Assembly (NCBI RefSeq): GCF_039888675.1
Contig: NZ_JBDQQR010000005.1
Coordinates: 62,001 to 126,000 of the forward strand
Reading direction: 5' to 3'
DNA length: 64,000 bases
From: Mesorhizobium sp. CAU 1732
GTDB lineage: Bacteria > Pseudomonadota > Alphaproteobacteria > Rhizobiales > Rhizobiaceae
The first letter of the stretch is position 1; each line of letters opens with the position of its first letter. The notes beneath the pieces were generated by a model. The model searched no databases. It was given only the letters and a program-made list of their open reading frames with translations, and had not been told where the DNA came from. The position numbers and the translations under genes were made by a program. Positions 13,609 through 29,603 of the stretch are shown here, in pieces.

Positions 13609-13610
13609 AG

Positions 13611-14087: not shown

Positions 14088-14105
14088 CATATCCTCCTGA
14101 GTCAT

Positions 14106-14519: not shown

Positions 14520-14572
14520 AGGCTGGTGAGTTCAAGATAGGCGTCGCCCTTTAGGCCGGGCTCTTGGCGAAG

Positions 14573-14608
14573 CCGAAGCCTGACGGTGTTCGCCCATACG
14601 GGCTTCGG
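14573..14608 (+). repeat. leader hairpin upstream of 14653
   Basis: The arms CCGAAGCC (14573-14580) and GGCTTCGG (14601-14608) form a perfect 8-bp stem with a 20-nt loop, 44 nt before the start of the next gene. It is the first of the inverted-repeat leaders that precede genes of the conjugative backbone. Confidence 0.55.
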
Positions 14609-14652
14609 TCCCTGACGCGAGGCCGGCTGCCGCCGGAGAGGAGACCTGGAGG

Positions 14653-14931
14653 ATGTTCGCTATCCTGAACTCCTGGCTGCAGCGCCGCCGTGCCATTCGC
14701 TGGCGTTGGCAGGCCGACGCGCGTCGCCTCGTGCGAGAGGATGAGCGGGGCGCCTATTACGAGGCGCAGCGCCTCGCGGCACGGGCGCTGGCCGCGGGCA
14801 GCGGTGCGGAGTTCGCCCATTGGGCCAAGGTCGCGGCGGAGGTGGCGCGGATCTCGCCGCGTGCGGACATGGATCTCGCGACCGTACATGCGATCGTCGA
14901 CGCGGAGCTGCGGCGGGCGGGCAGGCCTTAA
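14653..14931 (+). CDS. small conserved hypothetical protein of the conjugative backbone
   Basis: The protein has 92 residues and starts at ATG 14653 directly behind GAGGAGACCTGGAGG. It is basic at the N-terminus (LQRRRAIRWRWQADARRLV) and helical throughout, with many Ala and Arg residues. No catalytic motif or membrane segment is visible. I do not recognise a function. The good ribosome binding site and the position at the head of the plus-strand backbone gene row support it as real. Confidence 0.6.
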   Translation: MFAILNSWLQRRRAIRWRWQADARRLVREDERGAYYEAQRLAARALAAGSGAEFAHWAKVAAEVARISPRADMDLATVHAIVDAELRRAGRP

Positions 14932-15027
14932 GCGGTGTCACGCCGGGCGGCGCGACAAGGATCATCAACGGCGATGCCGCGGCAGCGCCCGGCGAGAATG
15001 GTTCGTTCGGGAGAGGCAGGGGACCAA

Positions 15028-15209
15028 CGGGAGCGGGCCAATCCCGCTCTTCTGCGATGTCTCTTGGTCCGGTCCCGGATCTTCCACGATCAACCCGCTG
15101 CGGGGTCGGCTACGCGGAGCGTGCCGCCGCTTTCGTCTTCGACTTCAGGGTGATCGCGACCGGGACAGGCCCTTCCGAGGAGCCATCGAGCGGGATTGGC
15201 CCGCTCCCG
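15028..15209 (+). repeat. 22-bp perfect inverted repeat in leader of 15224
   Basis: The 22-nt arm at 15028-15049 is the exact reverse complement of 15188-15209. The arms enclose 138 nt of GC-rich non-coding sequence and end 14 nt before the next start codon. Transcribed, this would clamp the leader and hide the ribosome binding site region. Arms this long and perfect are unlikely by chance, even at this GC content. Confidence 0.8.
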
Positions 15210-15223
15210 ATGGAGCCTCACCC

Positions 15224-15409
15224 ATGTCGAACGACCTTGATCTCGCCCAGAACGCCGCCTTCCAGCTCGCCCGCACCCTGATGGTCCCGGTCTCCCTGTT
15301 CGAGGTCGACGGCTCCTACGGTGTCCTGCCGGCCGACGAGCTCGACGGCGCCGATGTCACAGTGCTTTTCGAATACGATCCCTTCTCGGGCGCACGGCCG
15401 GCTCATTGA
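15224..15409 (+). CDS. small acidic hypothetical protein
   Basis: The protein has 61 residues and starts at ATG 15224, just behind the long inverted repeat. It is acidic and compact, beginning MSNDLDLAQNAAFQLARTL and ending with a VTVLFEYDPF strand. No known motif is seen. Its position in the leader-gene-leader pattern of this element and the clean ORF-like composition support it; the function is unknown. Confidence 0.6.
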   Translation: MSNDLDLAQNAAFQLARTLMVPVSLFEVDGSYGVLPADELDGADVTVLFEYDPFSGARPAH

Positions 15410-15452
15410 GCCGGCCTTTTGCTTTTCGGGCTGCCGCTTGCGAGCGGCATGC

Positions 15453-15533
15453 GGCAAGGGAAGCTTCGCCGCGGCTGGCACGGAATGGGCGGCGCAAGTT
15501 GCAAGTTCTCATCTTGCCAGCCGCGCCCTTGCC
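15453..15533 (+). promoter_or_regulatory. bulged long hairpin in leader of the TOPRIM gene
   Basis: Outer stem GGCAAGGG (15453-15460) pairs with CCCTTGCC (15526-15533). A 9-nt left bulge AAGCTTCGC (15461-15469) follows. The inner 11-bp stem CGCGGCTGGCA (15470-15480) pairs with 15515-15525, with no unpaired base on the 3' side. The same architecture recurs at 16582-16617. It is most likely a structured RNA element upstream of ATG 15625. Confidence 0.7.
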
Positions 15534-15624
15534 CCCTTTGCTCTTCGCGGCCTCCGGAAGCGGCCCCCAAAGACTGGGGCAAGGCAGAACAGGAAAGGCG
15601 GCCGCAAAGAAGGCCGGGCAAAAA

Positions 15625-16590
15625 ATGGAAAAGAAGGAACTGGAAGAACTGCGGGACCGTGTGAGTTGCGCCGCCGTACTGGAACATGCAGGCTTTGCGA
15701 TCGATCTGAAGGAAAGCACGCGCAAGGCGGTCAAATACCGGCGCGGGGGCGAAATCGTCATAGTCATCCACGATGGCAAGGGATGGTTTGATCCGCTGAG
15801 CGACGCCAAGGGCGACGTTTTCAATCTAGTCGAGCATCTGGAGGGCTTCACCTTTGTGGAGGTCCTCGATCATGTCGCATCACTTATCGGGCTCGTGCCG
15901 ACAGAGCCGGTATGGATGCGGCAGGCGCGGGAGAGCCAGCCAGCAGATTCCATCCCCGAACGCTGGCAAAACCGCCGCAAGCCATGGCGGGGATCTGCCA
16001 CCTGGCGCTATCTTCGCGATGAGCGATGCCTGCCGGAATCCATCATCCGCTCCGTCATCCAGCATGATCTTCTGCGCGAGGGGCCGCGTAGCTCAATGTG
16101 GGCGGCGCACAAGAGCGATGATGGCACTGTCACAGGCTGGGAGGAGCGCGGACCTGAATGGCGAGGTTTTTCAACAGGTGGCGCAAAAGTGCTACTCAGG
16201 CTTGGCCCACCCAACGCTTTGCGTCTGTGCGTTACCGAAGCCGCAATCGACGCGATGAGCCTTGCCGCACTGGAAGAGGCGCGTCCCGGCAGCCTCTATC
16301 TCAGCACGGGCGGGGGATGGTCGCCGTCGACCGAGGCTGCGATCCGCCATCTTGCGATGCAGGATGGCGCAGAGCTTGTCGCCGCCACCGACAATAATGA
16401 GCAGGGCGATCGATATGCGGAAAGGCTGGAGGCAGTCGCGACTGAATCCGGTTGCAAATTCGCGCGCCTGCGTCCGGTCGAAGACGACTGGAACGCAGAA
16501 CTGAAGGCAAAGGTAAAAAGAGAAAAAGGGGGAAGGGAAGAGGAGGAGGAATCCCGGCTGCCGCATGCCCGCCGTCCGCCTCAAGGGTAA
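15625..16590 (+). CDS. DUF3991/TOPRIM domain protein (primase-like)
   Basis: The protein has 321 residues from ATG 15625 (MEKKELEELRDRVSCAAVLE), the usual family N-terminus. The upstream open frame to 15406 is leader sequence and was rejected as coding. The DUF3991 part includes KGWFDPLSDAKGDVFNLVEH (about 52-71). The C-terminal TOPRIM region has LCVTEAAIDAMSLAAL, the acidic AATDNNEQGD, and a final DDWNAELK. Such proteins are common on plasmids and integrative elements and resemble DnaG/relaxosome-associated primases. Initiating complementary-strand synthesis after transfer is an inference. The Lys/Glu-rich tail runs into the next leader. Confidence 0.85.
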   Translation: MEKKELEELRDRVSCAAVLEHAGFAIDLKESTRKAVKYRRGGEIVIVIHDGKGWFDPLSDAKGDVFNLVEHLEGFTFVEVLDHVASLIGLVPTEPVWMRQARESQPADSIPERWQNRRKPWRGSATWRYLRDERCLPESIIRSVIQHDLLREGPRSSMWAAHKSDDGTVTGWEERGPEWRGFSTGGAKVLLRLGPPNALRLCVTEAAIDAMSLAALEEARPGSLYLSTGGGWSPSTEAAIRHLAMQDGAELVAATDNNEQGDRYAERLEAVATESGCKFARLRPVEDDWNAELKAKVKREKGGREEEEESRLPHARRPPQG

Positions 16591-16617
16591 AGCTTCGCCC
16601 GGCTGCGCCGGCCCTTG
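16582..16617 (+). promoter_or_regulatory. second copy of the bulged hairpin motif, leader of 16730
   Basis: Outer stem CAAGGG (16582-16587) pairs with CCCTTG (16612-16617). An 11-nt left bulge ends in AAGCTTCGC. Inner stem CCGGC/GCCGG (16599-16603 with 16607-16611) has a TGC loop. This matches the 15453-15533 element in order and bulge sequence but with a different inner stem. The TOPRIM stop codon (16588-16590) lies in the bulge. Flanking CCGTCCG/CGGACGG can extend the structure. Confidence 0.65.
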
Positions 16618-16729
16618 ACCCGGCCGGACGGAGAGGCGGCCGCGGGGAGGGGTCAGGAAGGCCGAAGAGGATGGTGATCCGCATGGGATGAACCGCGCTC
16701 CGGCCTGACGAGGCTGAAGGAGCCCGCCA

Positions 16730-17332
16730 ATGACCCTCACCGCCATCCGCAAAGTCTATCAGGGCGTCGCCGATCGCCGGCAGACGTTCCGCATGTTCGA
16801 TCGCCATGCCCAGAGGCCTGACCGCTGGCAGAATGACGACAGCGCACTCTTCATCGGAGAGTGGTTCGAACATCGCCAGAGCGAGCACGACTACATGCTC
16901 AACATCCTGCAGCCGCTCTGGATGCGGCATGATATGTTCGCCATGCGCGAGTTTCTGACGGGCAGCGTGACCAGCGTATTCTTCTCGCTCGCGATCGACG
17001 GAGCCGTTCGTCATTTCCACGGCTATTGCGATCTTGCCGACAATGGCTCGCCCGAGCGCATGAAAGCCGCGATCATCGAGCGGGAAACCCGGCCGGTACG
17101 GGCAATGACGCGCGACGAGCGGCTCGAGCATATCTGGAGCGCGACCGAGGACGGCTATCGCGGCTATGCCGATGAGCGTTTCCCGGTAACGCAGCGTGGC
17201 CAGCGTGTCGTGATGATGTGTGCATCCCGGCAGGCGCGGACCTTCAGGCTGCTCGACCAGCTCACCGATGCCGAGGTGTCGACGAAGCTACCGGTGCATC
17301 TGCGCTACCTTCCCGAACAGATAGCGGCTTGA
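16730..17332 (+). CDS. conserved hypothetical protein of the conjugative backbone
   Basis: The protein has 200 residues and starts at ATG 16730 behind GAAGGAGCCCGCCA. It is rich in aromatic and basic residues, with the segments HDYMLNILQPLWMRHDMF and HFHGYCDLADNG. No membrane span or recognised catalytic motif is visible. It is 14 nt upstream of the DUF3085 gene, so the two are one transcript. I do not know its function. Confidence 0.7.
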   Translation: MTLTAIRKVYQGVADRRQTFRMFDRHAQRPDRWQNDDSALFIGEWFEHRQSEHDYMLNILQPLWMRHDMFAMREFLTGSVTSVFFSLAIDGAVRHFHGYCDLADNGSPERMKAAIIERETRPVRAMTRDERLEHIWSATEDGYRGYADERFPVTQRGQRVVMMCASRQARTFRLLDQLTDAEVSTKLPVHLRYLPEQIAA

Positions 17333-17346
17333 GCGGAGGCGGGACC

Positions 17347-17748
17347 ATGCTGACTTTCCCGATCTGCGATGTGCGCAAGGTCATAGCGCAGGGTATTGCC
17401 GACGCTCTCGCCAATGGCGGCTTCAGCGACCCGCATCTGGGCCTGTCGGAACACGACAATTGCAAACCCGGCCTTTGGCTGGTTGGCGATCATGGGGTCT
17501 ATCTGTGCTCGAACGGCAAACTGGCCGAGGGGCAGAAGCCTTTGGTCGCCTATGCCGAAGAGTGCAATCCCGATGTCAACGAGGACTGGTGGGACGTCAA
17601 ACGCGCCACCTTCGGCAGTGACGACGGCGTGGACTTCCTCAGCGCGACCTCTCTTGAGGCGCTGTTTGCCGGTACGCCTGACGGCACGCATCTGCGCATA
17701 GCCTTCATGACGGAGTCGATGCAGCTCTTCATTGTCCGCAAGGACTGA
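17347..17748 (+). CDS. DUF3085 domain protein
   Basis: The protein has 133 residues from ATG 17347. The segments PGLWLVGDHGVYLCSNG and VAYAEECNP followed by SDDGVDFL are characteristic of DUF3085. The family occurs on proteobacterial mobile elements and its function is unknown. A DUF3085 RNA motif has been described upstream of such genes in comparative RNA surveys, which may relate to the structured leader ahead of 16730. The preceding gene ends 14 nt upstream. Confidence 0.8.
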   Translation: MLTFPICDVRKVIAQGIADALANGGFSDPHLGLSEHDNCKPGLWLVGDHGVYLCSNGKLAEGQKPLVAYAEECNPDVNEDWWDVKRATFGSDDGVDFLSATSLEALFAGTPDGTHLRIAFMTESMQLFIVRKD

Positions 17749-17865
17749 TCCGCTTCGCCGCAAGGCGTAGCGCAATTCCACCCTTTCCAACTGATCGCGT
17801 TCAACCAGCTTGCCGGCGCTCCGGCGGGAGGGTGACGCGCGCCTTCAACACAGGAGATATTTGAA

Positions 17866-20800
17866 ATGGCGCAAGACGATCCTTTCACGCTCGATATGTT
17901 CGGCAGCACCTCGCTGTCCTCCGGTCTTGGCCTTGGCGTGACCGCCTTTACCGACGACTTCGACCCGGATGACGATCCGGATTCCACCACGCCCGCACCG
18001 GCCATTGCCGGTGTGGTGTGCTCGCCGAATCCGAAGACACAAAGCAATCCAGCTCGCGGCATGAACTTCCACCTCGCCGACAGCCGCGGTCTGGCGAAGG
18101 GCTGGAAGAAGCGTGCGCGCGACAGCATCGCAGCGATCCGGCTCGCCGCCGAAATCGAAGAGGAGGATCGTCCCGCCACAGGCGAGGAGCAGGAGCAGTT
18201 GATCCGCTTCACAGGCTTCGGCGCATCGGAACTGGCCAATGGCGTGTTCCGCAAGCCCGGCGCGGTCGAATTCAGCAAGGGCTGGGAGGAGATCGGCGGC
18301 GAATTGCAGGATGCCGTGGACGATACGGCCTATGCTTCGCTGTCACGCTGCACGCAATACGCCCATTTCACGCCAGAGTTCATCATTCGGGCGATCTGGT
18401 CAGGACTTCAGCGGCTTGGATGGCGTGGTGGCCGCATGCTCGAACCCGGTATCGGCACAGGTCTGTTTCCAGCGCTGATGCCCGAGGCGCTGCGCGACAT
18501 CTCCCATCTGACAGGCATTGAGCTCGATCCAGTCACCGCCCGCATCGCCAGGCTGCTGCAGCCACGCGCCCGCATCATCACCGGCGATTTCGCGCACACC
18601 GATCTGTCGGCCAGTTTTGATCTCGCCGTCGGCAATCCGCCATTCTCCAGCCGAACGGTCCGCTCCGACCGTGACTATCGCTCGATGAGTCTGGTGCTGC
18701 ATGACTATTTCATCGCGAGGTCGATCGACCTGCTGAAGCCGGGGGGCTTTGCCGCTTTCGTCACCAGCCATGGTACGATGGACAAGGCCGATTGCTCGGC
18801 GCGCGAGCATATTGCGAAGTCCGCCGACCTGATTGCCGCGATCCGTCTGCCCGAGGGCAGTTTCCGGGCCGAGGCCGGTACGGACGTCGTCGTCGACATC
18901 CTGTTCTTCCGCAAGCGCAAGACTGGAGAGCCTGAGGGCGATCAGGCCTGGCTCGATATTGATGAGGTGCGTCCAGCGACGGAGGACGAGGGGGCGATCC
19001 GCATCAACAGATGGTTCGCCCGCCATCCCGACTTCGTGCTCGGCGAGCATGTCGTGCGCCACGGTATCTATGGCCCGAAGGAGACCTATTCCTGCCCGCC
19101 GCGCGACGGCGAGGATCTCGACGCGGCTCTTGCCGCCGCCATCTCCCTTCTTCCGGAAGCCCTTTATGACGGTGAGCCGACCGTCATCGATGCCGATCTG
19201 GAAGATATAGCCGATGGCGCCCCCGTCGATCTTCCGTCAGAGCGCCACGTTCGCGAAGGCAGCTTCTATTTCGAAAGGTCGCAGGGCCTGATGCAGATCA
19301 TCGACGGCGAGCCCGTTCCGGTGAAGGTTCGCAGGGGCCGCAGCAGCGACGGTATCCCGGAGAAGCATGTCGGCATCATCCGCAAGCTGATCCCGGTCCG
19401 CGACGCCGTGCGCGAGGTGCTGAAGGCGCAGGAGCTCGACCGTCCCTGGAAGGATTTGCAGGTCAAGCTCAGGATCGCCTGGTCGAGCTTCGTGCGCGAG
19501 TTCGGCCCGATCAACCACACCACCGTCTCAATCACGGAGGATGAGGAGAGCGGCGAGGTTCGCGAAACTCATCGGCGTCCGAACCTCCAACCTTTCCTGG
19601 ACGACCCTGATTGCTGGCTGGTAGCGTCGATCGAGGATTATGATCTCGATACCGATACATCCCGCCCAGGCCCGATCTTCTCGGAGCGGGTGATCTCGCC
19701 GCCGGCGCCGCCTGTGATCACCAGTGCGGCCGACGCGCTCGCCGTGGTGTTGAACGAACGCGGCCATGTCGATCTCGACCACATCGCCGAGCTTCTGCAC
19801 CGTGATGCGGATTCGGTCGTGGAGGAACTTGGGAGCGCGATCTTCCGTGATCCCGCAGATGGCTCGTGGCAGACCGCCGATGCCTATCTGTCCGGCCATG
19901 TTCGCGACAGACTGAGGGTGGCGGAAGCAGCAAGCGCGCTCGATCCCGCCTATCAGCGCAATGTCGCCGCACTTGCCGCCGTGCAGCCGATCGATCTTGG
20001 CCCTTCGGACATTACCGCTCGGCTCGGCGCGCCGTGGATACCGGCCGCCGATATCGTCGCCTTCATCAAGGAGACGATGGATGCCGACATAAAGATCCAT
20101 CACATGCCCGAACTCGCGTCATGGACGGTCGAGGCGCGGCAACTCGGCTGGCTCGCCGTCGGCACATCGGAATGGGGGACCAACCGCCGTCATGCCGGCG
20201 AACTGCTTGCCGATGCCCTCAACAGCCGCGTTCCACAAATCTTCGACACCGTGCGAGAGGGCTCCAGCGAACGGCGGGTGTTGAATGTCGTCGACACCGA
20301 GGCGGCAAAGACCAAGCTGCAGAAGATCAAGGATGCGTTCCAGCGCTGGATCTGGTCGGACGCCGATCGCACCGACCGGCTGGCGCGCGACTATAATGAT
20401 CGCTTCAACAACATAGCGCCGCGCCGTTTCGACGGTTCGCATCTCCATCTTCCAGGCGCCTGTGCGGCCTTCACCCTCTATCCGCACCAGAAGCGTGGGA
20501 TATGGCGGATCATATCGTCGGGCGCGACCTATCTGGCGCATGCCGTGGGGGCCGGCAAGACGATGACCATGGCAGCCGGTATCATGGAACAGCGTCGTCT
20601 CGGCCTGATCGCCAAGGCGATGCTGACCGTCCCGGGCCATTGCCTCGCTCAGGTCGCGCGTGAGTTCCTGGCGCTCTACCCGAATGCCCGCATTCTCGTG
20701 GCCGACGAGACCAATTTTACCAAGGACAAGCGGGCCAGGTTCCTGTCGCGCGCGGCGACTGCGACATGGGACGCGATCATCATCACGCATTCGGCATTCA

Positions 20801-22971
20801 GGTTCATCGGCGTGCCCTCAGCCTTCGAGCAGCAGATGATCCATGATGAGCTGGAACTCTACGAGAAGCTGCTGCTCGACGTCGAGGACGACGACCGCGT
20901 CTCGCGCAAGCGGCTTGAGCGCCTGAAGGAAGGCTTGCAGGAACGGCTCGAAGGTCTCGCCACCCGCAAGGACGATCTGCTGACTATCTCCGAGATCGGC
21001 GTTGACCAGATCATTGTCGACGAGGCGCAGGAGTTCAGAAAACTCAGCTTCGCGACCAACATGTCCACGCTCAAGGGCGTCGATCCAAACGGTTCGCAGC
21101 GCGCCTGGGACCTCTATGTCAAATCCCGCTTCATCGAGGTGAAGAACCCGGGCAGGGCGCTCGTACTGGCGTCGGGAACCCCGATCACCAACACATTGGG
21201 CGAGATGTTCAGCGTGCAGCGGTTGATGGGCCATGCGGCGCTGATGGAACGCGGACTGCACGAGTTCGATGCCTGGGCGAGCACGTTCGGAGAAATGACG
21301 ACCGAGCTCGAACTTCAGCCATCCGGCAAATACAAGCCGGTGTCACGCTTTGCCAGCTTTGTGAATGTCCCGGAACTGATCGCCATGTACCGGTCCTTCG
21401 CCGATGTGGTGATGCCGGATGACCTGGCGCGCTATGTGAAGGTGCCGGCGATCTCTACCGGCCGACGCCAGATCGTCACGTCGAAGCCGACTTTAGCTTT
21501 CAAGCGCTACCAGATGATCCTGGCCGAGCGCATCAGGAAGATCGAGCTTCGCGAGCGGCCGCCAGAGCCCGGTGACGACATCCTGCTTTCCGTCATTACG
21601 GATGGCCGGCATGCCGCGATCGATCTTCGCCTGGTCGATTGCGACAATGACAATGAGCCCGACAACAAGCTCAACAGTCTGATCTCCAACGCCTATCGCA
21701 TTTGGCAGGAAACGGGAGCCAACAGCTACGTTCGCCCGGACGGCAAAGCCTATGAGCTTCCCGGCGCGGCGCAGATGATCTTCTCCGATCTCGGCACGAT
21801 CAATGTCGAGAAGACGCGCGGCTTCTCTGCCTATCGCTGGATCCGCGACGAACTGATCCGTATGGGCGTGCCCGCGTCCGAAATCGCCTACATGCAAGAC
21901 TTCAAGAAGTCCGAAGCCAAACAGCGGCTGTTCGGCGATGTCCGTGCCGGCAAGGTACGTTTCCTTCTTGGAAGCTCCGAGACGATGGGCACCGGCGTCA
22001 ATGCCCAGCTCAGGCTGAAGGCATTGCATCACCTCGACGTGCCATGGTTGCCATCGCAGATAGAGCAGCGCGAGGGCCGCATTGTCAGGCAGGGCAACCA
22101 GCATGATGAGGTCGATATCTTCGCCTATGCCACCGAGGGTAGCCTCGACGCGACCATGTGGCAGAACAATGAGCGCAAGGCACGATTCATCGCCGCAGCA
22201 TTGTCGGGCGACACCACCATCCGCAGGCTGGAGGATATGGGCGAAGGCCAGGCCAATCAGTTTGCGATGGCGAAAGCGATTGCTAGCGGCGATCAGCGCC
22301 TGATGCAGAAGGCCGGTCTTGAAGCTGACATTGCTCGACTTGAACGGCTGCGCGCCGCCCATATCGACGATCAGCATGCCGTGCGCCGCAATATCCGTGA
22401 TGCCGAGCGCGATATCGAGCAATCCACCCGCCGCATTGCCGAAATCGGCGAGGACATCGCGCGGCTCGTTCCAACCTCGGGCGAGGCCTTCTCGATGAAG
22501 GTGACCGGCAAATCCTATGTCGACCGCAAGGATGCCGGTCGCGCCTTGCTCAAGGAAATCCTGACCCTGGTGCAGGTCCAGCAGGAAGGCGACACCATCA
22601 TCGCCTCGATCGGCGGCTTCGATCTCGAATTCTCAGGCCAGCGCTTCGGCAATGACAGCTACCAATATGTCACTTCGCTTCTAATCACCGAGGCCGACGA
22701 CGAGATCGACCTGCCGATCACGGTAACGCCGCTCGGCGCGATCTCCCGCCTCGAGCACGCGCTGTCAGGCTTCGACCATGACCAGGAGCGCTATCGCCAA
22801 CGGCTTGCCGATGCCAACCGTCGGCTGGCGTCCTACCAGGCTCACGGCGACGGCGGAGACTTCGCGTTCGCCAACGAACTCGCCGACAAGCATCGGCAGC
22901 TTGCCGAGGTCGAGGCCGATCTGGCGCAGGATATCGATGGCATTGTCGACGTTGAGCCGCTCGCCGCCTGA
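17866..22971 (+). CDS. giant DNA methylase-helicase fusion (strawberry-notch/SNF2-like)
   Basis: The protein has 1701 residues; ATG 17866 follows CAGGAGATATTTGAA. An N-6 adenine methylase-like domain has SAM motif EPGIGTGLF (about 193) and catalytic NPPF (about 257). The SF2 helicase half has Walker A GAGKT (K898), IIVDEAQEF (about 1050) and motif VI QREGRIVRQGNQ (about 1400), followed by a coiled C-terminus. Such fusions are standard on alphaproteobacterial conjugative elements. Likely roles are modification or remodelling of the incoming DNA and restriction avoidance; neither is shown here. The DISARM/BREX resemblance is only at the level of domains. Confidence 0.9.
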   Translation: MAQDDPFTLDMFGSTSLSSGLGLGVTAFTDDFDPDDDPDSTTPAPAIAGVVCSPNPKTQSNPARGMNFHLADSRGLAKGWKKRARDSIAAIRLAAEIEEEDRPATGEEQEQLIRFTGFGASELANGVFRKPGAVEFSKGWEEIGGELQDAVDDTAYASLSRCTQYAHFTPEFIIRAIWSGLQRLGWRGGRMLEPGIGTGLFPALMPEALRDISHLTGIELDPVTARIARLLQPRARIITGDFAHTDLSASFDLAVGNPPFSSRTVRSDRDYRSMSLVLHDYFIARSIDLLKPGGFAAFVTSHGTMDKADCSAREHIAKSADLIAAIRLPEGSFRAEAGTDVVVDILFFRKRKTGEPEGDQAWLDIDEVRPATEDEGAIRINRWFARHPDFVLGEHVVRHGIYGPKETYSCPPRDGEDLDAALAAAISLLPEALYDGEPTVIDADLEDIADGAPVDLPSERHVREGSFYFERSQGLMQIIDGEPVPVKVRRGRSSDGIPEKHVGIIRKLIPVRDAVREVLKAQELDRPWKDLQVKLRIAWSSFVREFGPINHTTVSITEDEESGEVRETHRRPNLQPFLDDPDCWLVASIEDYDLDTDTSRPGPIFSERVISPPAPPVITSAADALAVVLNERGHVDLDHIAELLHRDADSVVEELGSAIFRDPADGSWQTADAYLSGHVRDRLRVAEAASALDPAYQRNVAALAAVQPIDLGPSDITARLGAPWIPAADIVAFIKETMDADIKIHHMPELASWTVEARQLGWLAVGTSEWGTNRRHAGELLADALNSRVPQIFDTVREGSSERRVLNVVDTEAAKTKLQKIKDAFQRWIWSDADRTDRLARDYNDRFNNIAPRRFDGSHLHLPGACAAFTLYPHQKRGIWRIISSGATYLAHAVGAGKTMTMAAGIMEQRRLGLIAKAMLTVPGHCLAQVAREFLALYPNARILVADETNFTKDKRARFLSRAATATWDAIIITHSAFRFIGVPSAFEQQMIHDELELYEKLLLDVEDDDRVSRKRLERLKEGLQERLEGLATRKDDLLTISEIGVDQIIVDEAQEFRKLSFATNMSTLKGVDPNGSQRAWDLYVKSRFIEVKNPGRALVLASGTPITNTLGEMFSVQRLMGHAALMERGLHEFDAWASTFGEMTTELELQPSGKYKPVSRFASFVNVPELIAMYRSFADVVMPDDLARYVKVPAISTGRRQIVTSKPTLAFKRYQMILAERIRKIELRERPPEPGDDILLSVITDGRHAAIDLRLVDCDNDNEPDNKLNSLISNAYRIWQETGANSYVRPDGKAYELPGAAQMIFSDLGTINVEKTRGFSAYRWIRDELIRMGVPASEIAYMQDFKKSEAKQRLFGDVRAGKVRFLLGSSETMGTGVNAQLRLKALHHLDVPWLPSQIEQREGRIVRQGNQHDEVDIFAYATEGSLDATMWQNNERKARFIAAALSGDTTIRRLEDMGEGQANQFAMAKAIASGDQRLMQKAGLEADIARLERLRAAHIDDQHAVRRNIRDAERDIEQSTRRIAEIGEDIARLVPTSGEAFSMKVTGKSYVDRKDAGRALLKEILTLVQVQQEGDTIIASIGGFDLEFSGQRFGNDSYQYVTSLLITEADDEIDLPITVTPLGAISRLEHALSGFDHDQERYRQRLADANRRLASYQAHGDGGDFAFANELADKHRQLAEVEADLAQDIDGIVDVEPLAA

Positions 22972-22983
22972 ATGATCATGATG

Positions 22984-23011
22984 GCCCGCCATGTCCTCGG
23001 ACGTGGCGGGC
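22984..23011 (+). terminator. hairpin terminator after the methylase-helicase
   Basis: GCCCGCC (22984-22990) pairs with GGCGGGC (23005-23011), with inner GTC/GAC pairing, 12 nt after the stop codon. The tail (TATTCTCAT) is only weakly U-rich. It is probably an intrinsic terminator or mRNA end stabiliser. Confidence 0.6.
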
Positions 23012-23297
23012 TATTCTCATGTCGTCGCCAGAAAAGATGGGGAGGGAAAAAGAAAAAGGGGAGGGAAAAGCCCGCTCGCAGATCGGGCGGTCAGGTGACG
23101 CTGGCGCTCAACCGCGCCGCTCGCGATCCCGGCCCGTCTTCCTCGCAAGGCGCTGACGCGCCCCGCTCGTCTGGCCGGGCAGGGATGCTCGGCCGCAGTT
23201 GCACCAGGCCGTCCGCTCCGCGGGCCGGTGGGGGTCTTCGGGAAGAAGACAGGACCGGCAAGGCCCGGTTCTCCAACCCCCATGAAGGAGTAATTCC
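23012..23297 (+). promoter_or_regulatory. non-coding leader of the ParB-like gene
   Basis: About 290 nt without a gene. It opens with a purine tract (GGGAGGGAAAAAGAAAAAGG) that resembles one at the 3' end of the TOPRIM gene near 16521. It ends with GTCTTC-GGGAA-GAAGAC inside a GGGGGT/ACCCCC pair just before GAAGGAG and the start codon. It looks like another structured leader. Confidence 0.5.
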
Positions 23298-24959
23298 ATG
23301 CATGTCATGAAGGTCGATCCGCGCGCGCTGAACGAGAATCCCGACCGTTCGCGCCAGACCAAGTCCACCCCGCAGGCAGACCTGTTGCTGCTTGCGACCA
23401 TCAAGGCTGTCGGTATCGTTCAGCCCCCGGTGATCTTTCAGCAGACCGATGGCGGCAATGGCTATGTCATCGATTCCGGTCATCGCCGTGTCCGGCAGGC
23501 AATCAAAGCCGGTCTTGAAGAGATCGACGTGATCGTTGTCGAGGCTTCCAACGACAATGGCGCAATGCGCTCGATCGTCGAGAACACGGCGCGCGATCCG
23601 CTCAACCCAGTCGATCTTTGGCGCGCAATCGAGCGCCTGGTTGCTCTGAGCTGGACCGAGGAGGCGATTGCGATTGCTCTGTCACTCACGGTTCGCCGTG
23701 TCCGTCAGCTCAGGCTAATGGCCAATGTGCTGCCGGCCATGCTCGATCACATGGCGAAGGGCGATATGCCCAACGAGCAGCAGCTACGCACGATCGCATC
23801 CGCCTCGCTCGATGAGCAGAAGGAGGTCTGGAAGGCCAACAAGCCGTCGAAGTCCGACCCCAGGGCGAACTGGTGGGGCATTGCCAATGCGCTGACGAAG
23901 ACGCGCATGTTCGCCAAGGACGCCAGCTTCGATGACGAGCTTGCGCGCGCCTATGGCATCGAATGGGAGGAAGACCTGTTCGGTCCCGCCGACGAGGATG
24001 GCCGCTACACCACCAATGTGGAAGCCTATCTCGGCGCGCAGCAGGAATGGATGACCAACAACCTGCCCAAGCGCGGCATCGTTGCCGAAACCGGCGACTA
24101 CGGCGAGGTCAAGCTGCCGAAGAAGGCAGAGCGCGTCTATGGCAAGCCGACGAAGTCGGATCACACCGCCATGTATATCGACCGACAGGGCAAGGTGCAG
24201 AGTGTCGTCTATCGCATGCCCGAGGAGAAGAAAGCGAAGGGCGACGCCGGTGATACGGATGTGGCTCCGACTGCACGACCCGACGTCACCCGCAAGGGGC
24301 TCGACATGATCGGCGACCTGCGCACCGACGCCCTGCATGAGGCGCTTGCCCGAGCACCGATCGAGGACGACACGCTGATGGCGCTGCTCGTTCTGGCCTT
24401 TGCCGGCATGAACGTCTCGGTGACATCAGGGGCCAGCGGCGCATCGCCCTATGGGTCGGCCAATCTTGGCGAACATGCTGCACGGCTATTCAACCCCGAA
24501 GGCGCTTTCGCCTTCGACATGGACACGCTGCGCATCGCGGTTCGGTCCGTGTTGATCGAGGTGCTGTCATGCCGCTCGGGTCGGTCGAAGAGCGGCACTG
24601 TCGCGCTCGTTGCCGGCGATGCGGTCGGCGCTGACGGCTTCCTCGCCAATATGGGGACGGAGGAGTTCCTGTCGTGCCTGTCGCGTCCGGCTCTGGAGGC
24701 ATCGTGCAAGGACACGCCGGTCCTGCCGTGCCGGAAGGTGAAGGACACGCGCGCCGCTCTGGTCGAGCATTACGCAGAGGGACGGTTCGTCCACGCTTCT
24801 GCGCTGTTCGAGCCGAACGCGATCAAGCTCGCAAACTGGCTCAAGGAGAACGAGCCAGTCGCCGAGGATCAGGACGAGGGTGACGACGATCAGGTCGATC
24901 ACGCCGACGAGTCCGAAGGCGAAGAGTTCGACGAGCCATTCCGCGAAGCCGCCGAATAG
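23298..24959 (+). CDS. ParB/RepB/Spo0J-family protein
   Basis: The protein has 553 residues; ATG 23298 lies behind ATGAAGGAGTAATTCC. Residues 1-100 are a ParB N-domain: the family NTPase/arginine motif appears as DSGHRRVRQAI and ENTARDPLNP. A helix-turn-helix follows at EEAIAIALSLTVRRVRQLRLM (about 116-136). The remaining 400 residues are less typical and end in an acidic tail. No ParA is nearby, so it may be a DNA-binding regulator or a stability factor of the element rather than a partition protein. Confidence 0.85.
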   Translation: MHVMKVDPRALNENPDRSRQTKSTPQADLLLLATIKAVGIVQPPVIFQQTDGGNGYVIDSGHRRVRQAIKAGLEEIDVIVVEASNDNGAMRSIVENTARDPLNPVDLWRAIERLVALSWTEEAIAIALSLTVRRVRQLRLMANVLPAMLDHMAKGDMPNEQQLRTIASASLDEQKEVWKANKPSKSDPRANWWGIANALTKTRMFAKDASFDDELARAYGIEWEEDLFGPADEDGRYTTNVEAYLGAQQEWMTNNLPKRGIVAETGDYGEVKLPKKAERVYGKPTKSDHTAMYIDRQGKVQSVVYRMPEEKKAKGDAGDTDVAPTARPDVTRKGLDMIGDLRTDALHEALARAPIEDDTLMALLVLAFAGMNVSVTSGASGASPYGSANLGEHAARLFNPEGAFAFDMDTLRIAVRSVLIEVLSCRSGRSKSGTVALVAGDAVGADGFLANMGTEEFLSCLSRPALEASCKDTPVLPCRKVKDTRAALVEHYAEGRFVHASALFEPNAIKLANWLKENEPVAEDQDEGDDDQVDHADESEGEEFDEPFREAAE

Positions 24960-24988
24960 GCCGTCCCTTCTCTTTCCGAATGCCATTC

Positions 24989-25016
24989 CGCCGCCGGGTC
25001 ACACCGGCGGCGTTTT
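24989..25016 (+). terminator. rho-independent terminator after the ParB-like gene
   Basis: CGCCGCCGG (24989-24997) pairs perfectly with CCGGCGGCG (25004-25012) around a GTCACA loop and is followed by TTTT. It lies only 28 nt before the next start codon, so it could also act as an attenuator for the 25045 operon. Confidence 0.85.
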
Positions 25017-25044
25017 CATTTTCAGCAACAGATAGGTTTGCACC

Positions 25045-25518: not shown

Positions 25519-26405
25519 TGGCGAACTCCCCGCACACAACAACAACGGGCTCCACTTCCCGGTTTCCGGAGGTGGAGTTCGGCCACACGGCAGACGGCAT
25601 GTTCGCCGCCCGTGTGGCCGACAACGCTTTTGCCATGGCGCCGTGCCGCGACGGTTCTCATTATCTCGTGACGGCCTGGCGGATCGGCAGGCCGATCACT
25701 GAGTGGAAACGCGCCGATTTCTATGGCCATTCCGGCTCGCTCGCCGACGAAGCCGGCTTCCGCGCCAGAGTTCTGGAAAATGCGGAGCATCAGCGTGAGA
25801 AGCTGGCGCTCGGTCGGCGCGAGATCCACTCGAGCGCCTCTACGCCATGGGGCCCGTCTCAGGGCGGCACTGTCTTTGCCGAGGGCATCACCTGCCACTC
25901 GACCGCCGGCCATGGCGGTTTCCATCTGTCGGCCGATCGTAACCGCAAAGTCCATCCGTCGCTGCGCGCCAATCGCGGTTGGTATGAAGAAGATGAGTGC
26001 TGGGCGATCGTCGCGATCAGCTTCCCTCATCTCTTCACCAGCTTCGAACGGCGTTGCGCGGAATCTACGATGAAGGACAGTTGGCCCGACCAGTGGGAGG
26101 CCATCACTGGCATAGTCCTTCAGCCGGGTGAATCCCGCACGAAGGACGAGCGCGCCTTCCTCGCAGAACATGCCGATGACTGGCTGGTGCAGTCGGCCAT
26201 CATGTCCGATCCGCATCCGGGCTTCACCGAGGTCATCGCGACCAGAGGCGGTTGCCGTGAGGATGGCGTCGAGCGCCGGCGTTTCCTCGTCCCTTCGTCC
26301 GAATACAAGATGGGGCGCTTTGGCTTCGTCATCGATACCGGACGTCATGCCGAGTATAGCGATGCGTCGAGCTTTCCGGGCATCCACGGCAAGAGGGTCG
26401 CGTGA
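25518..26405 (+). CDS. conserved hypothetical protein (DUF7007-like)
   Basis: The protein has 295 residues; the ATG overlaps the previous stop (TAATG). Features include CRDGSHYLVTAWRIGRPITE, STPWGPSQ, and the repeated phrase HGGFHLSADRN followed by WYEEDECWAIVA. I associate this with the DUF7007 family of conjugative elements, but from memory only. The C-terminal ERRRFLVPSSEY segment is also conserved-looking. It is translationally coupled on both sides. Confidence 0.7.
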   Translation: MANSPHTTTTGSTSRFPEVEFGHTADGMFAARVADNAFAMAPCRDGSHYLVTAWRIGRPITEWKRADFYGHSGSLADEAGFRARVLENAEHQREKLALGRREIHSSASTPWGPSQGGTVFAEGITCHSTAGHGGFHLSADRNRKVHPSLRANRGWYEEDECWAIVAISFPHLFTSFERRCAESTMKDSWPDQWEAITGIVLQPGESRTKDERAFLAEHADDWLVQSAIMSDPHPGFTEVIATRGGCREDGVERRRFLVPSSEYKMGRFGFVIDTGRHAEYSDASSFPGIHGKRVA

Positions 26406-26731
26406 TGGCCGCCCTCGATCCCCGCGCGCGTCTCTTCCGCATGGAGGAGGCACGTCGCCAGACCCAGCATCAGCTCAGCATGATTGAGCGCCAGATCACC
26501 CGGCGAATGACTGCGTTGATCCCGCAATTGCAGCCTAAGCGAAAAGCCTTCCATCGCGGCAGGCCACCCGATCCGGCATCGTTCCTCGAACGCTACCGGT
26601 CCAATCTTGCCGCGATCACGGCTGAGCGTCAGCACGAGATCGATGCCCTGTCGCGCAAGCTGGCGCGGCAGGAGGACGCGATTGTGGTGTTTCGCAGGCG
26701 TTATGCGCTCGGAGCTGCTCAAGCCGCTTAG
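26405..26731 (+). CDS. small coiled-coil hypothetical protein
   Basis: The protein has 108 residues; ATG 26405 overlaps the upstream TGA (GTGATGG), giving coupling. It is very basic and helical (MEEARRQTQHQLSMIERQI; SRKLARQEDAIVVFRRRY), with two predicted coiled segments. No known domain is seen. GTG 26402 is an alternative start one codon earlier. The function is unknown. Confidence 0.65.
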   Translation: MAALDPRARLFRMEEARRQTQHQLSMIERQITRRMTALIPQLQPKRKAFHRGRPPDPASFLERYRSNLAAITAERQHEIDALSRKLARQEDAIVVFRRRYALGAAQAA

Positions 26732-27096
26732 AGGCCTCGACTCTTACGGGTCGAACAAGGCGCTCAACCTCTTTTTTTGATGCCGGTGTCTGTGAGCAGC
26801 CCTTGGCCCTTCTTGCCGGCGGGTTTGCTGCGGTCTGAACCAGCGGCTTGCCGCTTCAAGGCCGCTATCGCGCCGCAGAGCGGCCGAAGCACAGCCGATC
26901 TCGGCAGGGTTACCCCGCGCACTGCGCAGGGACCAGTGAAGAACTGGCCCACGCTTGTCCGCAAGCCAGCCCCGCTCGCCTGTCTGGCTCCGGACCCTGA
27001 AGCGCCCAGCTTGCGCCGGTTCTGTTTGACCGCACCCGCAGGCAAGAAGGGCCGAGGGCCAATCACCTGAAGGGCATCGTCAGAAAGGTAAGCTCA
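26732..27096 (+). promoter_or_regulatory. leader with 26-nt imperfect inverted repeat, upstream of 27097
   Basis: The 365 nt hold no credible gene. The arms 26799-26824 and 27034-27059 are complementary at 24 of 26 positions (core GGCCCTTCTTGCC) and enclose about 210 nt. A T-rich tract CTCTTTTTTT at 26769 may end the upstream operon. Open frames on both strands here mirror each other because of the repeat and are not genes. Confidence 0.65.
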
Positions 27097-27684
27097 ATGT
27101 CCAGTTCAACCCGTCAACCCAAGTCCCGCGCCCGCGCTGCGCAGACCCGCAAGGGCACCACGTTGGAAATGGTCCGGCTCTGCTGCCCCGACAGCAACCA
27201 GGCATCCCTCATCTCCGAAAGCTTCGGGCTCCCTGTCCTCGACAGCGGCGGCATCCGCGAGTTCCACGAGCGCAGTCTGATCGAAGGCGCCGACACCCTC
27301 TCCGAGGGGCTCTCCGACAAGGCGATGCAGATCCATCTCCAGAGGATAGTCGGATCCTATGTCGGCTCGGCCTACGGCGCAGGCCAGTTCTACTCGAAGG
27401 CCGTCTCCGAGGCGAAGGATGCCTCGGCAAGGCTGGCCAACGACGCCCGCGACGAGGATCTCGAAGGCCCCGTGGGCTTCGACAGCGCCGCCCAGCGCAA
27501 GCGCGAGTTCGCCGCTGACATGGGGCTCCAGTCCCACGCCCTGCGCATGGCTGCCGAAGGCGCGGTAGCCGCCTACGAGCACATCGTCGGCGAGGCGTGG
27601 AAGCCCTACGAGCGCCAGGTCGAGAACCCCGGCCAGAGCGTCAGCCGCAAAGCGGCCGAACTCCAGATGGCGGCTCTCGGCTGA
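27097..27684 (+). CDS. conserved hypothetical protein of the conjugative backbone
   Basis: The protein has 195 residues; ATG 27097 lies behind GAAAGGTAAGCTCA. The N-terminus is Ser/Arg-rich and probably disordered. From about 60 on it is helical with Ala-rich segments (YVGSAYGAGQFYSKAVSEAK). No membrane span or enzyme motif is seen. It is preceded by a long structured leader and followed by a strong terminator, so it is a single-gene unit. The function is unknown. Confidence 0.65.
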   Translation: MSSSTRQPKSRARAAQTRKGTTLEMVRLCCPDSNQASLISESFGLPVLDSGGIREFHERSLIEGADTLSEGLSDKAMQIHLQRIVGSYVGSAYGAGQFYSKAVSEAKDASARLANDARDEDLEGPVGFDSAAQRKREFAADMGLQSHALRMAAEGAVAAYEHIVGEAWKPYERQVENPGQSVSRKAAELQMAALG

Positions 27685-27692
27685 GCCCTTTC

Positions 27693-27714
27693 GGGCGGAG
27701 CTTCGGCTCCGCCC
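27693..27714 (+). terminator. hairpin after 27097 gene
   Basis: GGGCGGAGC-TTCG-GCTCCGCCC is a perfect 9-bp stem with an ultrastable TTCG loop, 8 nt after the stop. No U tract follows immediately, so it may serve as a terminator or an mRNA end protector. Confidence 0.7.
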
Positions 27715-27808
27715 ATACATACCCCATCAAGGCCGGTTTCCTTCGGGACGCCGGCCTCTTCGCGTGTCCAGACTGGGATTCAGAATGAGCAGGGTCAACG
27801 TGACCGCA

Positions 27809-27985
27809 CCGATCGCGGCCGTCACGAAAGCTGGTCCTGCTCCGGTCCTCGTCCCGCGAAACGGCTGCGCCGTCCTTCACTGGCGTTGCGGCCCGCAGGC
27901 GACATCTCCCTTCCTTCCGATTGCTCATCGCGGGTTCGCGGACCTGCGGTCCTGCGCGGTCGGACCTCGTGACGGCCGCGATCGG
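27809..27985 (+). repeat. 19-bp perfect inverted repeat in ardC leader
   Basis: 27809-27827 is the exact reverse complement of 27967-27985. The arms enclose 139 nt, almost the same loop size as the 15028-15209 element, and end 27 nt before the ardC start codon. Confidence 0.8.
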
Positions 27986-28012
27986 CGCGGCCCCGAACTG
28001 GAGGTCCGGTAA

Positions 28013-28939
28013 ATGGACAGGAAGAGCAATAAACCCCGCGTCGACATCTATGCGAAGATCACCGACCGGATCGTCGCGGATCTGGAGAAGGGCACGCGCC
28101 CCTGGGTGAAGCCATGGAGCGCGGCCAATACCGCCGAACGGATCACCCGCCCGCTTCGGCACAACGGATTGCCGTATCAGGGGATCAATACCCTGCTTTT
28201 GTGGTCGGAGACGGTCGCGCGGGGCTTCGTCTCGCCAACCTGGATGACCTACAAGCAAAGCGCCGAACTGGGCGGTCAGGTCCGCAAGGGCGAGACCGGC
28301 TCGATGGTCGTCTATGCCAGCCGATTCACGCGTACCGAAACCGATGCGCGGGGCGAAGAGGTCGAGCGCGGAATTCCGTTCCTCAAGGCATACACCGTCT
28401 TCTGCGCCGATCAGATCGATGATCTGCCGGCGCAGTATTACGGCAATCCTGCGCCGGTGGCCGATGCTGTCGAACGTATCGCGCATGCCGATGCGTTCTT
28501 TGCCAATACCGGCGCGATCATCCGCCACGGTGGTAACCAGGCCTTCTTCAATCCGCTGCTCGACATCGTCCAGATGCCGCCCTTCGAGTGCTTCCGCGAT
28601 GCTGCCGGATATTATGCGACCCTCGGTCACGAGATGACCCATTGGGCTGGGTCGGACAAGCGGCTCGATCGCAATCTCTCGCGCTATAGCAAGGATCGGT
28701 CGTTCCGTGCCCACGAAGAACTCGTGGCAGATCTTGGCGGTTGTTTCCTCGCCGCCGATCTCGGAATAGTGCCCGAGCTCGAACCACGCCCCGATCACGC
28801 CAGTTACCTCGCCAGTTGGCTGACGATACTCAAGAACGACAAGCGGTACATCTTCGCAGCCGCCGCCCATGCCCAGCGTGCCATCACCTATCTGCACGGA
28901 CTTCAGCCGGACGCCGAGCAAATCGCGGAGGCGGCGTGA
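28013..28939 (+). CDS. ardC: ArdC-family antirestriction protein
   Basis: The protein has 308 residues; ATG 28013 follows GGAGGTCCGGTAA. The N-terminal ArdC single-strand-DNA-binding part (DIYAKITDRIVADLEKGTRP, then YQGINTLLL) spans 11-130. The C-terminal zincin-like part has HEMTHW (H206, E207, H210) and the third-ligand segment EELVADLGG (about 235). ArdC proteins protect incoming single-stranded DNA during conjugation, so it should act in the recipient soon after entry. Its neighbours (DUF736, relaxase) fit this role. Confidence 0.92.
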   Translation: MDRKSNKPRVDIYAKITDRIVADLEKGTRPWVKPWSAANTAERITRPLRHNGLPYQGINTLLLWSETVARGFVSPTWMTYKQSAELGGQVRKGETGSMVVYASRFTRTETDARGEEVERGIPFLKAYTVFCADQIDDLPAQYYGNPAPVADAVERIAHADAFFANTGAIIRHGGNQAFFNPLLDIVQMPPFECFRDAAGYYATLGHEMTHWAGSDKRLDRNLSRYSKDRSFRAHEELVADLGGCFLAADLGIVPELEPRPDHASYLASWLTILKNDKRYIFAAAAHAQRAITYLHGLQPDAEQIAEAA

Positions 28940-29603
28940 TCTGGCAGGCCGAAGGCCCCGCCTCACGACGGAGTGCTGTCGCAGCGCTCATCCCGTGTGG
29001 CGGAACCGGATCAACAGGCTGTATTGACCGTCACCACAGATGGGGTGGGCCATTCGAATGGCGAAGGCGGATGTCTCCGGCTTGCGAGGGGAAGGCGTTA
29101 AACCTCATTGAGTTCTCCCGGCACGCCGGACGACATGCGACCGGCAGGCGGATGGTATCCCGGTCTGGTCGAGCGGGGGTCTCGCAGGCGCGCGTGGCAA
29201 GATGCCGGGAGGCCGGGCTGGAAAGCGTCTGCCTAAGCTGTGTCGAAATGAACGTCCCGACAGGGTGGCCAGTCGTCTCGCCAGTGGTTTCCTGGAGAGG
29301 GCGCAACCAACTGCGTCCTCGATGTGGCTGGTCTGACCGAAGGCCGTCTTCGCTGCGCTGTGTCTCGTTCTAAAGCCCGCAACATCCGTTCGGTACTTTC
29401 TTCCCCTGCCGAAACCACCCCACGCGACAGGTCGCGCGGGGACCCCGGTTTTGCCGTCATTCCCCGCGGAACAAGAAAGACCCGCCCTGGCTGCCCTCCT
29501 CTGCGTTCCGGCCCCTGCGGGGTGCGAGCCGATCGCCTCCGGTCTGTCGACCGCCATCGAGGTCGCGATGGTCGCGGCCCGAGAAAAACACGGAGACGAC
29601 ATC
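28940..29603 (+). promoter_or_regulatory. 660-nt non-coding leader of the DUF736 gene
   Basis: No credible gene occurs on either strand over 664 nt. Near the 3' end, CCCCGCGGAAC (29462-29472) pairs with GTTCCG (29505-29510) plus GCGGGG (29517-29522) around a 6-nt right bulge. An 11-position stem with one mismatch (CCCCACGCGAC/GTCGCGCGGGG) lies near 29418-29441. An 18-nt stretch at 28947-28964 is the exact reverse complement of 29938-29955, beyond the gene. Confidence 0.55.

Follow-up and report, generated by a model that had tools for sequence, protein, structure and literature searches.

In the leading region of a Ti-type (MOBQ) conjugative element of Mesorhizobium sp. CAU 1732, five genes are preceded by conserved folds that fit the transferred strand (T-strand) better than the messenger RNA (mRNA), which suggests, from modelled structures, an undescribed way of switching on entry genes while the DNA is single-stranded. 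The region was analysed within a stretch of 64,000 nucleotides (nt), hereafter the window (RefSeq assembly GCF_039888675.1, positions 62,001 to 126,000 of the 142,303-base contig NZ_JBDQQR010000005.1). The elements, 200-300 nt long and located before 15224, 23298, 27097, ardC and a DUF736 gene, are read, with roughly even confidence, as single-strand promoter-like entry elements folding on the T-strand. An initial annotation of the window had proposed that long inverted repeats in these leaders form a shared regulatory device, acting either as RNA leaders that hold translation or as single-strand promoters. No description of these elements, nor of early expression after entry in Ti-type and other alphaproteobacterial conjugative elements, was found in searches of the open-access PubMed Central (PMC) literature.

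Conserved stems in the leaders

Leaders were lettered by the start of the following gene: A (15224), B (15625), C (16730), E (17866), F (the ParB-like gene at 23298), G (25045), H (27097), I (ardC, 28013) and J (DUF736, 29604). The features below include matches to R1, a sequence/structure model built from 26 ardC leaders, with their E-values (E).

15014..15216, minus strand: element A, before 15224, arms 15024-15049/15188-15213
23058..23258, minus strand: element F, before the ParB-like gene 23298, from the aligned fold
26799..27059, minus strand: element H, before 27097, a single hairpin of about 260 nt
27782..27992, minus strand: element I, before ardC 28013, I/J family with junction core, ending 20 nt short of the start codon, R1 E 1.2e-27 (a training sequence)
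29306..29600, minus strand: element J, before DUF736 29604, I/J family, R1 match at 29407-29579 on the minus strand, E 0.002
15424..15571, no strand assigned: repeat of the initial annotation before 15625, 75/500 shuffles, p ≤ 0.05 in 6/22 leaders including the window
16607..16727, no strand assigned: repeat of the initial annotation before 16730, 175/500 shuffles, p ≤ 0.05 in 1/24 leaders including the window

For each window leader, the strongest local inverted repeat was scored against 500 dinucleotide shuffles. The repeats before 15224 (22 bp perfect, 15028-15049/15188-15209, loop of 138), 27097 (26799-26864/26991-27059, 52 pairs) and ardC (19 bp perfect, 27809-27827/27967-27985, loop of 139) were matched in 0/500 shuffles each, and the one before DUF736 (29272-29344/29535-29600, 52 pairs) in 1/500, while those before 15625 and 16730 were at chance level. 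The leader before the ParB-like gene, missed by the initial annotation, scored 95/500 in the window copy alone, yet its fold is conserved across 26 aligned sequences. In a list of inverted repeats covering the 64 kb (arms at most 400 apart), the top four by length (I1-I4) were all located in leaders of this region, I4 being in the 15625 leader.

When all leaders found were scored, window included (60 shuffles each, p ≤ 0.05), inverted repeats were significant in 13/18 A, 23/25 H, 25/35 ardC and 16/24 DUF736 leaders. Element F was nearly invisible by this measure (4/28), its support being the aligned fold. Among the remaining leaders, the proportions were 6/22 for B, 1/24 for C, 10/26 for E (short hairpins) and 22/23 for G (short, terminator-like hairpins). 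Arm positions relative to the start codon were steady in many relatives, at about -200 and -36 for A with a loop of about 138; in the closest relatives those of ardC were at about -212 and -46 with a loop of about 140.

Covarying stems at the same positions, set beforehand as the test of the proposal, were found for the 15224, 23298, 27097 and 29604 leaders. Element H (22 aligned sequences, window included in this and the following alignments) comprised 72 pairs with 93.6% of cells paired and 32 pairs changed on both sides, and its 152 both-side cells compare with 45.9±6.1 in 500 shuffles. Element J (21 aligned, 20 distinct) had 63 pairs, 95.1% of cells paired, 22 covarying pairs and 56 both-side cells (15.5±3.1 shuffled); element F (26 aligned), 52 pairs, 96.4%, 12 covarying pairs and 25 cells (7.6±2.1); and element A (15 aligned), 37 pairs, 93.8%, 9 covarying pairs and 12 cells (3.6±1.6). 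These observed cell counts were reached by 0/500 shuffles each; the shuffles cover these four of the five elements and ignore relatedness. Sliding the partner by 1-3 columns lowered the paired cells of A, F, H and J from 94-96% to 30-52%. Alignments A1-A5 were built on the minus strand, and A2-A5 were folded and counted; A1 held 26 of the 29 listed ardC references, A4 21 of 22, and A2, A3 and A5 all those listed, the listing itself being without L043-L046 (ardC), L061 (A) and relatives under the identity limit. Overall, the stems in the leaders are conserved by covariation and the fold is well supported from the sequences, the function being putative. A whole-locus folding-energy scan was rejected as a proof of the elements: A (window, L071) and H (L066) stood out, window H, I and J fell short of a z-score (z) of -4, and other sites passed.

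The notion of a shared device at a fixed place thus held for several leading-region genes (A, F, H, I, J) and failed for the 15625 and 16730 leaders, and one fold for the whole gene set was not found: 17866 and 25045 have short local hairpins only, and the DUF3085 gene and 25518 have hardly any leader. Leader C was rejected as a candidate on its repeats (1/24, and 175/500 in the window) and on its folding, lower on the minus strand in 4/14. Leader B, at chance level in the window and at 6/22 by repeats in relatives, was also set aside, yet its z was below -2 in 13/22 sequences on the minus and 12/22 on the plus strand, with the minus lower in 14/22. Leader E has a short hairpin only, the window not being among its 10/26 significant leaders, and favours the plus strand, with the minus strand lower in 5/24. 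The short hairpin of leader G is followed by T-rich DNA and looks like the terminator of the preceding gene.

The folding strand and the transferred strand

Minimum free energy z values were calculated against 20 shuffles on both strands. Leaders with a start other than ATG, GTG or TTG were dropped (kept: A 16/18, C 14/24, E 24/26, F 26/28, H 22/25, I 33/35), and J was limited to relatives with at least 70% protein identity. With RNA parameters, mean z on the minus and plus strands was -5.10 and -3.13 for A, -2.49 and -1.45 for F, -7.30 and -4.53 for H, -2.80 and -2.38 for I, and -2.81 and -2.13 for J, with a lower value on the minus strand in 15/16, 18/26, 21/22, 21/33 and 14/24 leaders, respectively. 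With DNA parameters the corresponding counts were 13/16, 23/26, 19/22, 21/33 and 20/24. Coding controls (RNA parameters, every second relative) had no minus lean (7/12, 7/14, 6/12, 1/15, 6/22). RNAalifold consensus energies, calculated without L061 and L072 (A) and L041 and L043-L046 (I), were lower on the minus strand in 5/5 leaders (minus/plus: A -141.8/-134.5, H -240.4/-207.5, I -136.7/-132.5, J -165.4/-140.0, F -148.2/-136.1).

Wobble pairs were then counted in structures predicted without G-U, so that neither strand was favoured. On the T-strand, G.T exceeded A.C cells in F (70/15) and H (89/16), and the columns with three or more such cells, in the five leaders together, were 14 G.T against 4 A.C. 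In H and F, G-T pairs swap to A-T or G-C on the minus strand and would be A.C mismatches in the mRNA. A cruder plus-strand count in the best inverted repeats gave A.C/G.T values of 10/2 (A), 12/7 (F), 41/53 (H), 24/21 (I) and 46/9 (J), 133/92 in total. In independent genomes, 17 of the 20 placed R1 matches (L082, L085 and L091 left out) were folded on both strands, with the T-strand energy lower in 17/17 and z lower in 15/17; the construction of R1 on the minus strand gives this comparison a small bias.

Based on energies, consensus energies and independent genomes, the folded molecule is probably mainly the minus strand and not the mRNA. The modelled preference is clear for H and F, is favoured for A by energy, and appears moderate for J and weak for I. 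A better fold on the coding strand, as expected of an mRNA leader or riboswitch, was not found, the wobble test being decisive for H and F only. The RNA leaders holding translation that the initial annotation had offered as one option were therefore unsupported, as the energies and consensus energies favour the strand opposite the mRNA and the wobble agrees for two leaders.

The identity of the T-strand was approached through gene order and the origin of transfer (oriT), with the following features.

15224..15409, plus strand: 61-amino-acid (aa) gene, family unassigned, without Pfam match
23298..24959, plus strand: gene with a ParB N-terminal domain (PF02195)
27097..27684, plus strand: 195-aa gene, family unassigned, without Pfam match
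28013..28939, plus strand: ardC, antirestriction protein (PF08401, PF18818)
29604..29912, plus strand: DUF736 gene (PF05284)
31298..33217, minus strand: traG-type coupling protein (PF02534)
33944..33973, minus strand: oriT core, cgagggcgcaatatacgtcgctgaagcgac on the plus strand, nick expected on the minus strand near 33949/33950
33999..38636, plus strand: TraA-type relaxase (PF03389 and others), open frame from 33849, likely start 33999, past oriT

The leading region corresponds to the genes at 15.2-29.9 kb of the window. This set encodes the 61-aa protein, DUF3991/toprim, DUF1419 and DUF3085 proteins, a 1701-aa methylase/helicase, the ParB-like protein, two proteins (25045, 25518), the 195-aa protein, ArdC and DUF736. 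The set is largely shared, with its order kept, on plasmids of Agrobacterium, Rhizobium, Mesorhizobium, Aminobacter, Bradyrhizobium, Xanthobacter, Ancylobacter and Roseibium. To its right in the window lie the traG-type coupling protein gene (minus strand), oriT and the TraA-type relaxase gene; seven annotated relatives with the Ti-type set have traG/traD/traC downstream, and five of those also traA.

The traC-traA gap of five relatives (L057, L064, L066, L067, L071) contained a core like CCAAGGGCGCAATTATACGTCGC, reading TTGCGCCCT or CTGCGCCCT on the minus strand, of which the window core is a variant. Its orientation was the minus strand in the window and in 5/5 other loci examined. The RSF1010-type oriT pattern had no match in the window with up to 2 mismatches. 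The nick position, presumably that of RSF1010 and Ti by analogy, would make the minus strand the cut strand, leading left via traC, traG, DUF736 and ardC to 15 kb. With the minus strand nicked and the leading region to the left, the minus strand would be both the transferred strand and the template of the leading genes, an assignment that we infer from gene order and from the oriT core with this presumed nick position. The direction relative to the coupling protein in other genomes was not used as evidence, as mostly the downstream side was sampled; contig L097 has a different arrangement relative to the coupling protein.

Spread and anatomy of the ardC/DUF736 family

The ardC and DUF736 elements are a single family, as R1, built on ardC leaders only, matched DUF736 leaders (E 0.002 in the window; best in L060, E 1.8e-8), including those before second DUF736 copies (L032, L072). 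Among 289 Alphaproteobacteria genomes, 19 including the window's own had a match at E ≤ 1e-4. In total, 24 places were found, two of them in the window's genome (the window itself and one weak match without gene) and 22 in 18 other genomes. Twenty of these 22 stood directly before genes for ArdC (2), DUF736 (7) or YspA/SLOG-like proteins (11), and the two others had no recognised gene (L088, L090). The DUF736 calls were made by tblastn for six and by near identity to L079 for L080; the YspA/SLOG-like calls were based on PF10686 for one, on tblastn for seven including that one, and on inspection by eye for four. The start codon was 20-43 positions past the R1 match in 18/20 and 91 positions past it in L082 (L085 has no distance). 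Of 299 genomes sampled from the phylum, a set rich in relatives, 18 (the window's own included) gave a match at E ≤ 1e-5, and one of the 18 belongs to another class. DNA resembling the window ardC element occurred in 22 records of the plasmid collection; of ten such records listed, nine had no annotated feature at the element and one had no annotation. Rfam 15 gave 0 matches at E ≤ 1 in window positions 10000-50000 and 0 at E ≤ 0.5 over 19 loci.

Concerning the distance to the gene, measured wherever a start codon was available (21 ardC and 20 DUF736 leaders), the gap between element and start codon was 17-22 nt in the 21 ardC leaders and 23-29 nt in 19/20 DUF736 leaders, the remaining one having a doubtful start; the ribosome-binding site (RBS) sits inside this 17-29 nt gap. 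On the T-strand, read 5' to 3', I/J elements consist of the complement of start codon and RBS, the 17-29 nt gap, a small hairpin GGCCGCG-CCNAT-CGCGGCC, a long stem, a junction with CACC-loop-GG, the conserved GGCCGGAACGNAGTGGAGG and GGC-GNA-GCC, and the far arm last. The inner triloop was G-N-A on the T-strand in 24/33 ardC elements, and a G-N-A loop stabilises DNA mini-hairpins. The sequences of H, F and A differ from I/J. A terminal palindrome near the RBS (GGCCGCG-N5-CGCGGCC or GAGCGGG-N5-CCCGCTC) was present in elements I and A and in a large part of the other-genome set. The terminal hairpin beat shuffles in A (15/16), I (28/33) and the other-genome set (14/17), but not in H (12/22), J (11/24) or F (9/26), and its 3' half paired with the far arm above chance in A (11/16) and I (20/33), but not in the other-genome set (6/17). 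A bistable switch between terminal hairpin and far arm is not claimed on these counts. L119 has a divergent pair of DUF736 genes, both preceded by an I/J element (7252-7433 on the plus and 7651-7807 on the minus strand, about 220 nt apart).

The YspA/SLOG-like protein sharing the ardC-type element, 308-315 aa long, was encoded in L074-L076, L078, L081, L086, L087, L089, L093 and L094, and may be another entry gene product. Purine-rich plus-strand tracts (pyrimidine-rich on the T-strand) were observed just left of the far arm, at 23035-23072 in the window, left of element F in L033, L036 and L059, and left of element I in L034, L039 and L040.

Other features of the region concern its proteins. 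The 1701-aa methylase-helicase fusion is encoded at 17866-22971, and a published study (PMC7736820) reportedly deals with single-strand-specific plasmid methyltransferases, which may bear on it. The TraA-type relaxase (33999-38636) carries a C-terminal BID domain (PF17841), described by Pfam for Bartonella effector proteins and here perhaps a type IV system secretion signal. At the edge of the leading region, a SIR2-like gene with a STALD domain (12160-14105, minus strand) adjoins a 164-aa open frame, possibly forming a defence pair with it.

Mechanism, alternatives and known systems

Of the two options of the initial annotation, single-strand promoters were the best-fitting mechanism for the predicted function. 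The fixed gap to the start codon, the fold on the template strand and the probable identity of that strand with the T-strand together fit such promoters. Each element would fold on the transferred strand while it is single-stranded, ahead of each of the five leading-region genes. After entry, the folded T-strand would recruit the recipient RNA polymerase, or a primase-like starter, at the hairpin foot, where the transcript would start, so that transcription of the leading genes would begin immediately on the single strand; synthesis of the second strand would then remove the fold and silence them. The action would resemble that of the single-strand promoters Frpo/ssi, the elements being of an unrelated type. 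In favour of this reading, ArdC of R388 was reported to be needed in the recipient and not in the donor (PMC7213743).

Several results weigh against it. In a 240-nt folding-energy scan, only A among the window's five elements passed z -4, as did five other window sites, and the structures behind the pair counts were predicted from the same alignments in which the pairs were counted. The RNA-parameter minus preference of I and J was modest, covarying pairs were nearly equal on the two strands (minus/plus: A 19/18, H 39/37, I 27/28, J 27/25, F 24/23), and the wobble was uneven, with G.T/A.C cells on the T-strand of 9/18 in A, 4/5 in I and 10/8 in J. In the cruder plus-strand count, H alone was reversed (A.C 41, G.T 53). 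R1 also gave weak matches on the opposite strand of some ardC leaders (best L056, E 1.4e-5) and one on the other strand in L066 (35754, plus, E 0.0055), and one element of the L119 divergent pair is necessarily on the other strand. For sigma-70 boxes, the best match in the last 115 nt of the five leaders was 5.8-6.2 of 12, compared to 6.1-6.4 in shuffles. Finally, the template-strand bias found in pLS20 (see below), despite its reported non-template transfer, indicates that such a bias may have another cause. Upstream of the far (left) arm, sigma-70 boxes were likewise not above chance, so that no housekeeping promoter is visible.

The foremost alternative, considered unlikely, is that the structured single-stranded DNA (ssDNA) has another job, as ssi-type priming sites or as sites at which a plasmid protein, for example ArdC, the ParB-like protein or the DUF3991/toprim protein, would land or give protection. 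It shares the fold on the presumed transferred strand, and RSF1010-type MOBQ plasmids do use hairpin priming sites; the near-fixed 17-29 nt gap holding the RBS is not needed for priming, however, and there are several copies per conjugative element, each heading a gene. Rather improbable is an antisense RNA, transcribed from the minus strand across the leaders, which would fold and silence the gene in cis or trans: it predicts the same strand preference and would also account for the pLS20 bias and the L119 pair, but its promoter would need to sit on the minus strand at the start of the unrelated ArdC, DUF736 and YspA-like coding sequences, 17-29 nt from the fold, and no Rfam family matched. 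An mRNA leader, with a fold of the plus-strand RNA that would regulate translation or prevent read-through before entry, seems improbable. The plus strand does fold beyond shuffles (mean z -3.1 for A and -4.5 for H), and in its native orientation the comparable pLS20 EGeRS1-B shuts off expression driven by a promoter upstream of it (PMC8708921); the conserved minus-strand G.T pairs of H and F, the consensus energies favouring the minus strand in five of five leaders, and the lack, upstream of the left arm, of sigma-70 boxes in excess of chance speak against such a leader. Double-strand operator palindromes for a repressor, with incidental folding, are very improbable, as the terminal palindrome described above would suit them, but covarying stems 140-200 nt apart with one-strand G.T pairs would be left unexplained.

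If the single-strand promoter reading is true, single-strand gene expression extends beyond Frpo, which raises the question of what reads the fold without promoter boxes. The conserved template-strand fold at a near-fixed distance from the start codon makes it directly testable, on plasmids involved in crown gall biology, symbiosis and biodegradation. A wider joint reading is offered tentatively: an ssDNA regulatory element class over Alphaproteobacteria (the ardC/DUF736/YspA family and three further types), possibly with a polymerase start on the T-strand without -35 and -10 boxes and with EGeRS1 as a convergent or very distant member. The small near-gene hairpin would emerge first on entry and the far arm might invade it later, acting as a built-in timer.

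Among known systems, the Frpo/ssi single-strand promoters of F and ColIb-P9 lie in the leading region ahead of establishment genes and fold on the incoming strand (PMC9849209, PMC11541004). The F-plasmid Frpo is required for early expression in recipients (PMC9849209), and anti-defence genes are abundant in leading regions (PMC11541004). The elements described here likewise stand upstream of leading-region genes, from gene order in the window and annotated relatives; the presumed incoming strand folds into stem-loops, as predicted from covariation and strand tests, and would be the gene template, by the oriT core reading with the presumed nick position. They differ from Frpo in their length of about 200-300 nt with inner branches and in the sigma-70 match, which in the five leaders is about that of shuffles, whereas the stem of Frpo restores -35 and -10 boxes. 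The best reading is that they are analogous to Frpo and not members. As described in their texts, two Frpo surveys relied on BLAST, one also on the TTGACA/TATAAT consensus; the main text of PMC11541004 contains none of the words alphaproteobacteria, rhizob- or agrobacter-.

The structured STAXI motif, near SSB and antirestriction genes, was considered for an ssDNA role and has repeated pseudoknots with UUCG loops, noted by its authors to stabilise RNA rather than DNA (PMC2864571). In contrast, the ardC elements have the G-N-A inner triloop on the T-strand. In phage N4, the promoters of the virion RNA polymerase are small hairpins of the template strand in single-stranded form, placed immediately ahead of the start site. 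They resemble the elements in this placement and differ in needing a dedicated polymerase.

Closest in layout is EGeRS1 of the pLS20 family (Bacillus), conserved over 400-600 bp, rich in inverted repeats and present in several copies per plasmid before the RBSs of establishment genes including ardC (PMC8708921). Here too, multiple long inverted-repeat leaders stand directly before the RBSs of establishment genes. In the cited report, no constitutive promoter was found, the mechanism was unknown to its authors, and EGeRS1-B, when in native orientation, blocked read-through from a promoter lying upstream (PMC8708921, section 3.4); single-strand promoters were judged unlikely from the length, the lack of promoters and the nicked strand being non-template (PMC8708921). 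The reported transferred strand of EGeRS1 is thus the non-template strand, whereas that of the Ti-type element would be the template. R1 had no match in L120 (35 of the 65.8 kb of pLS20, ardC leader included) at E up to 10. Seven leaders of pLS20 (L120, NC_015148) were folded: the four GC-rich ones (GC 0.49-0.50; before coding sequences 14918-15760, 13708-14001, 18799-19038 and 23381-23890, ardC's among them), taken as EGeRS1-type by GC and without published coordinates, had lower energy on the template strand in 4/4 and lower z in 3/4, while the three others (GC 0.33-0.38) had slightly lower energy on the coding strand. Either the EGeRS1 strand argument needs a second look or the template-strand bias has another source, the latter weakening the single-strand promoter reading. 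The wobble and energy asymmetry provides a strand test separating structured DNA from structured RNA, which bears on that argument; if EGeRS1 is a convergent or distant member of the class, its reported strand assignment deserves a second look.

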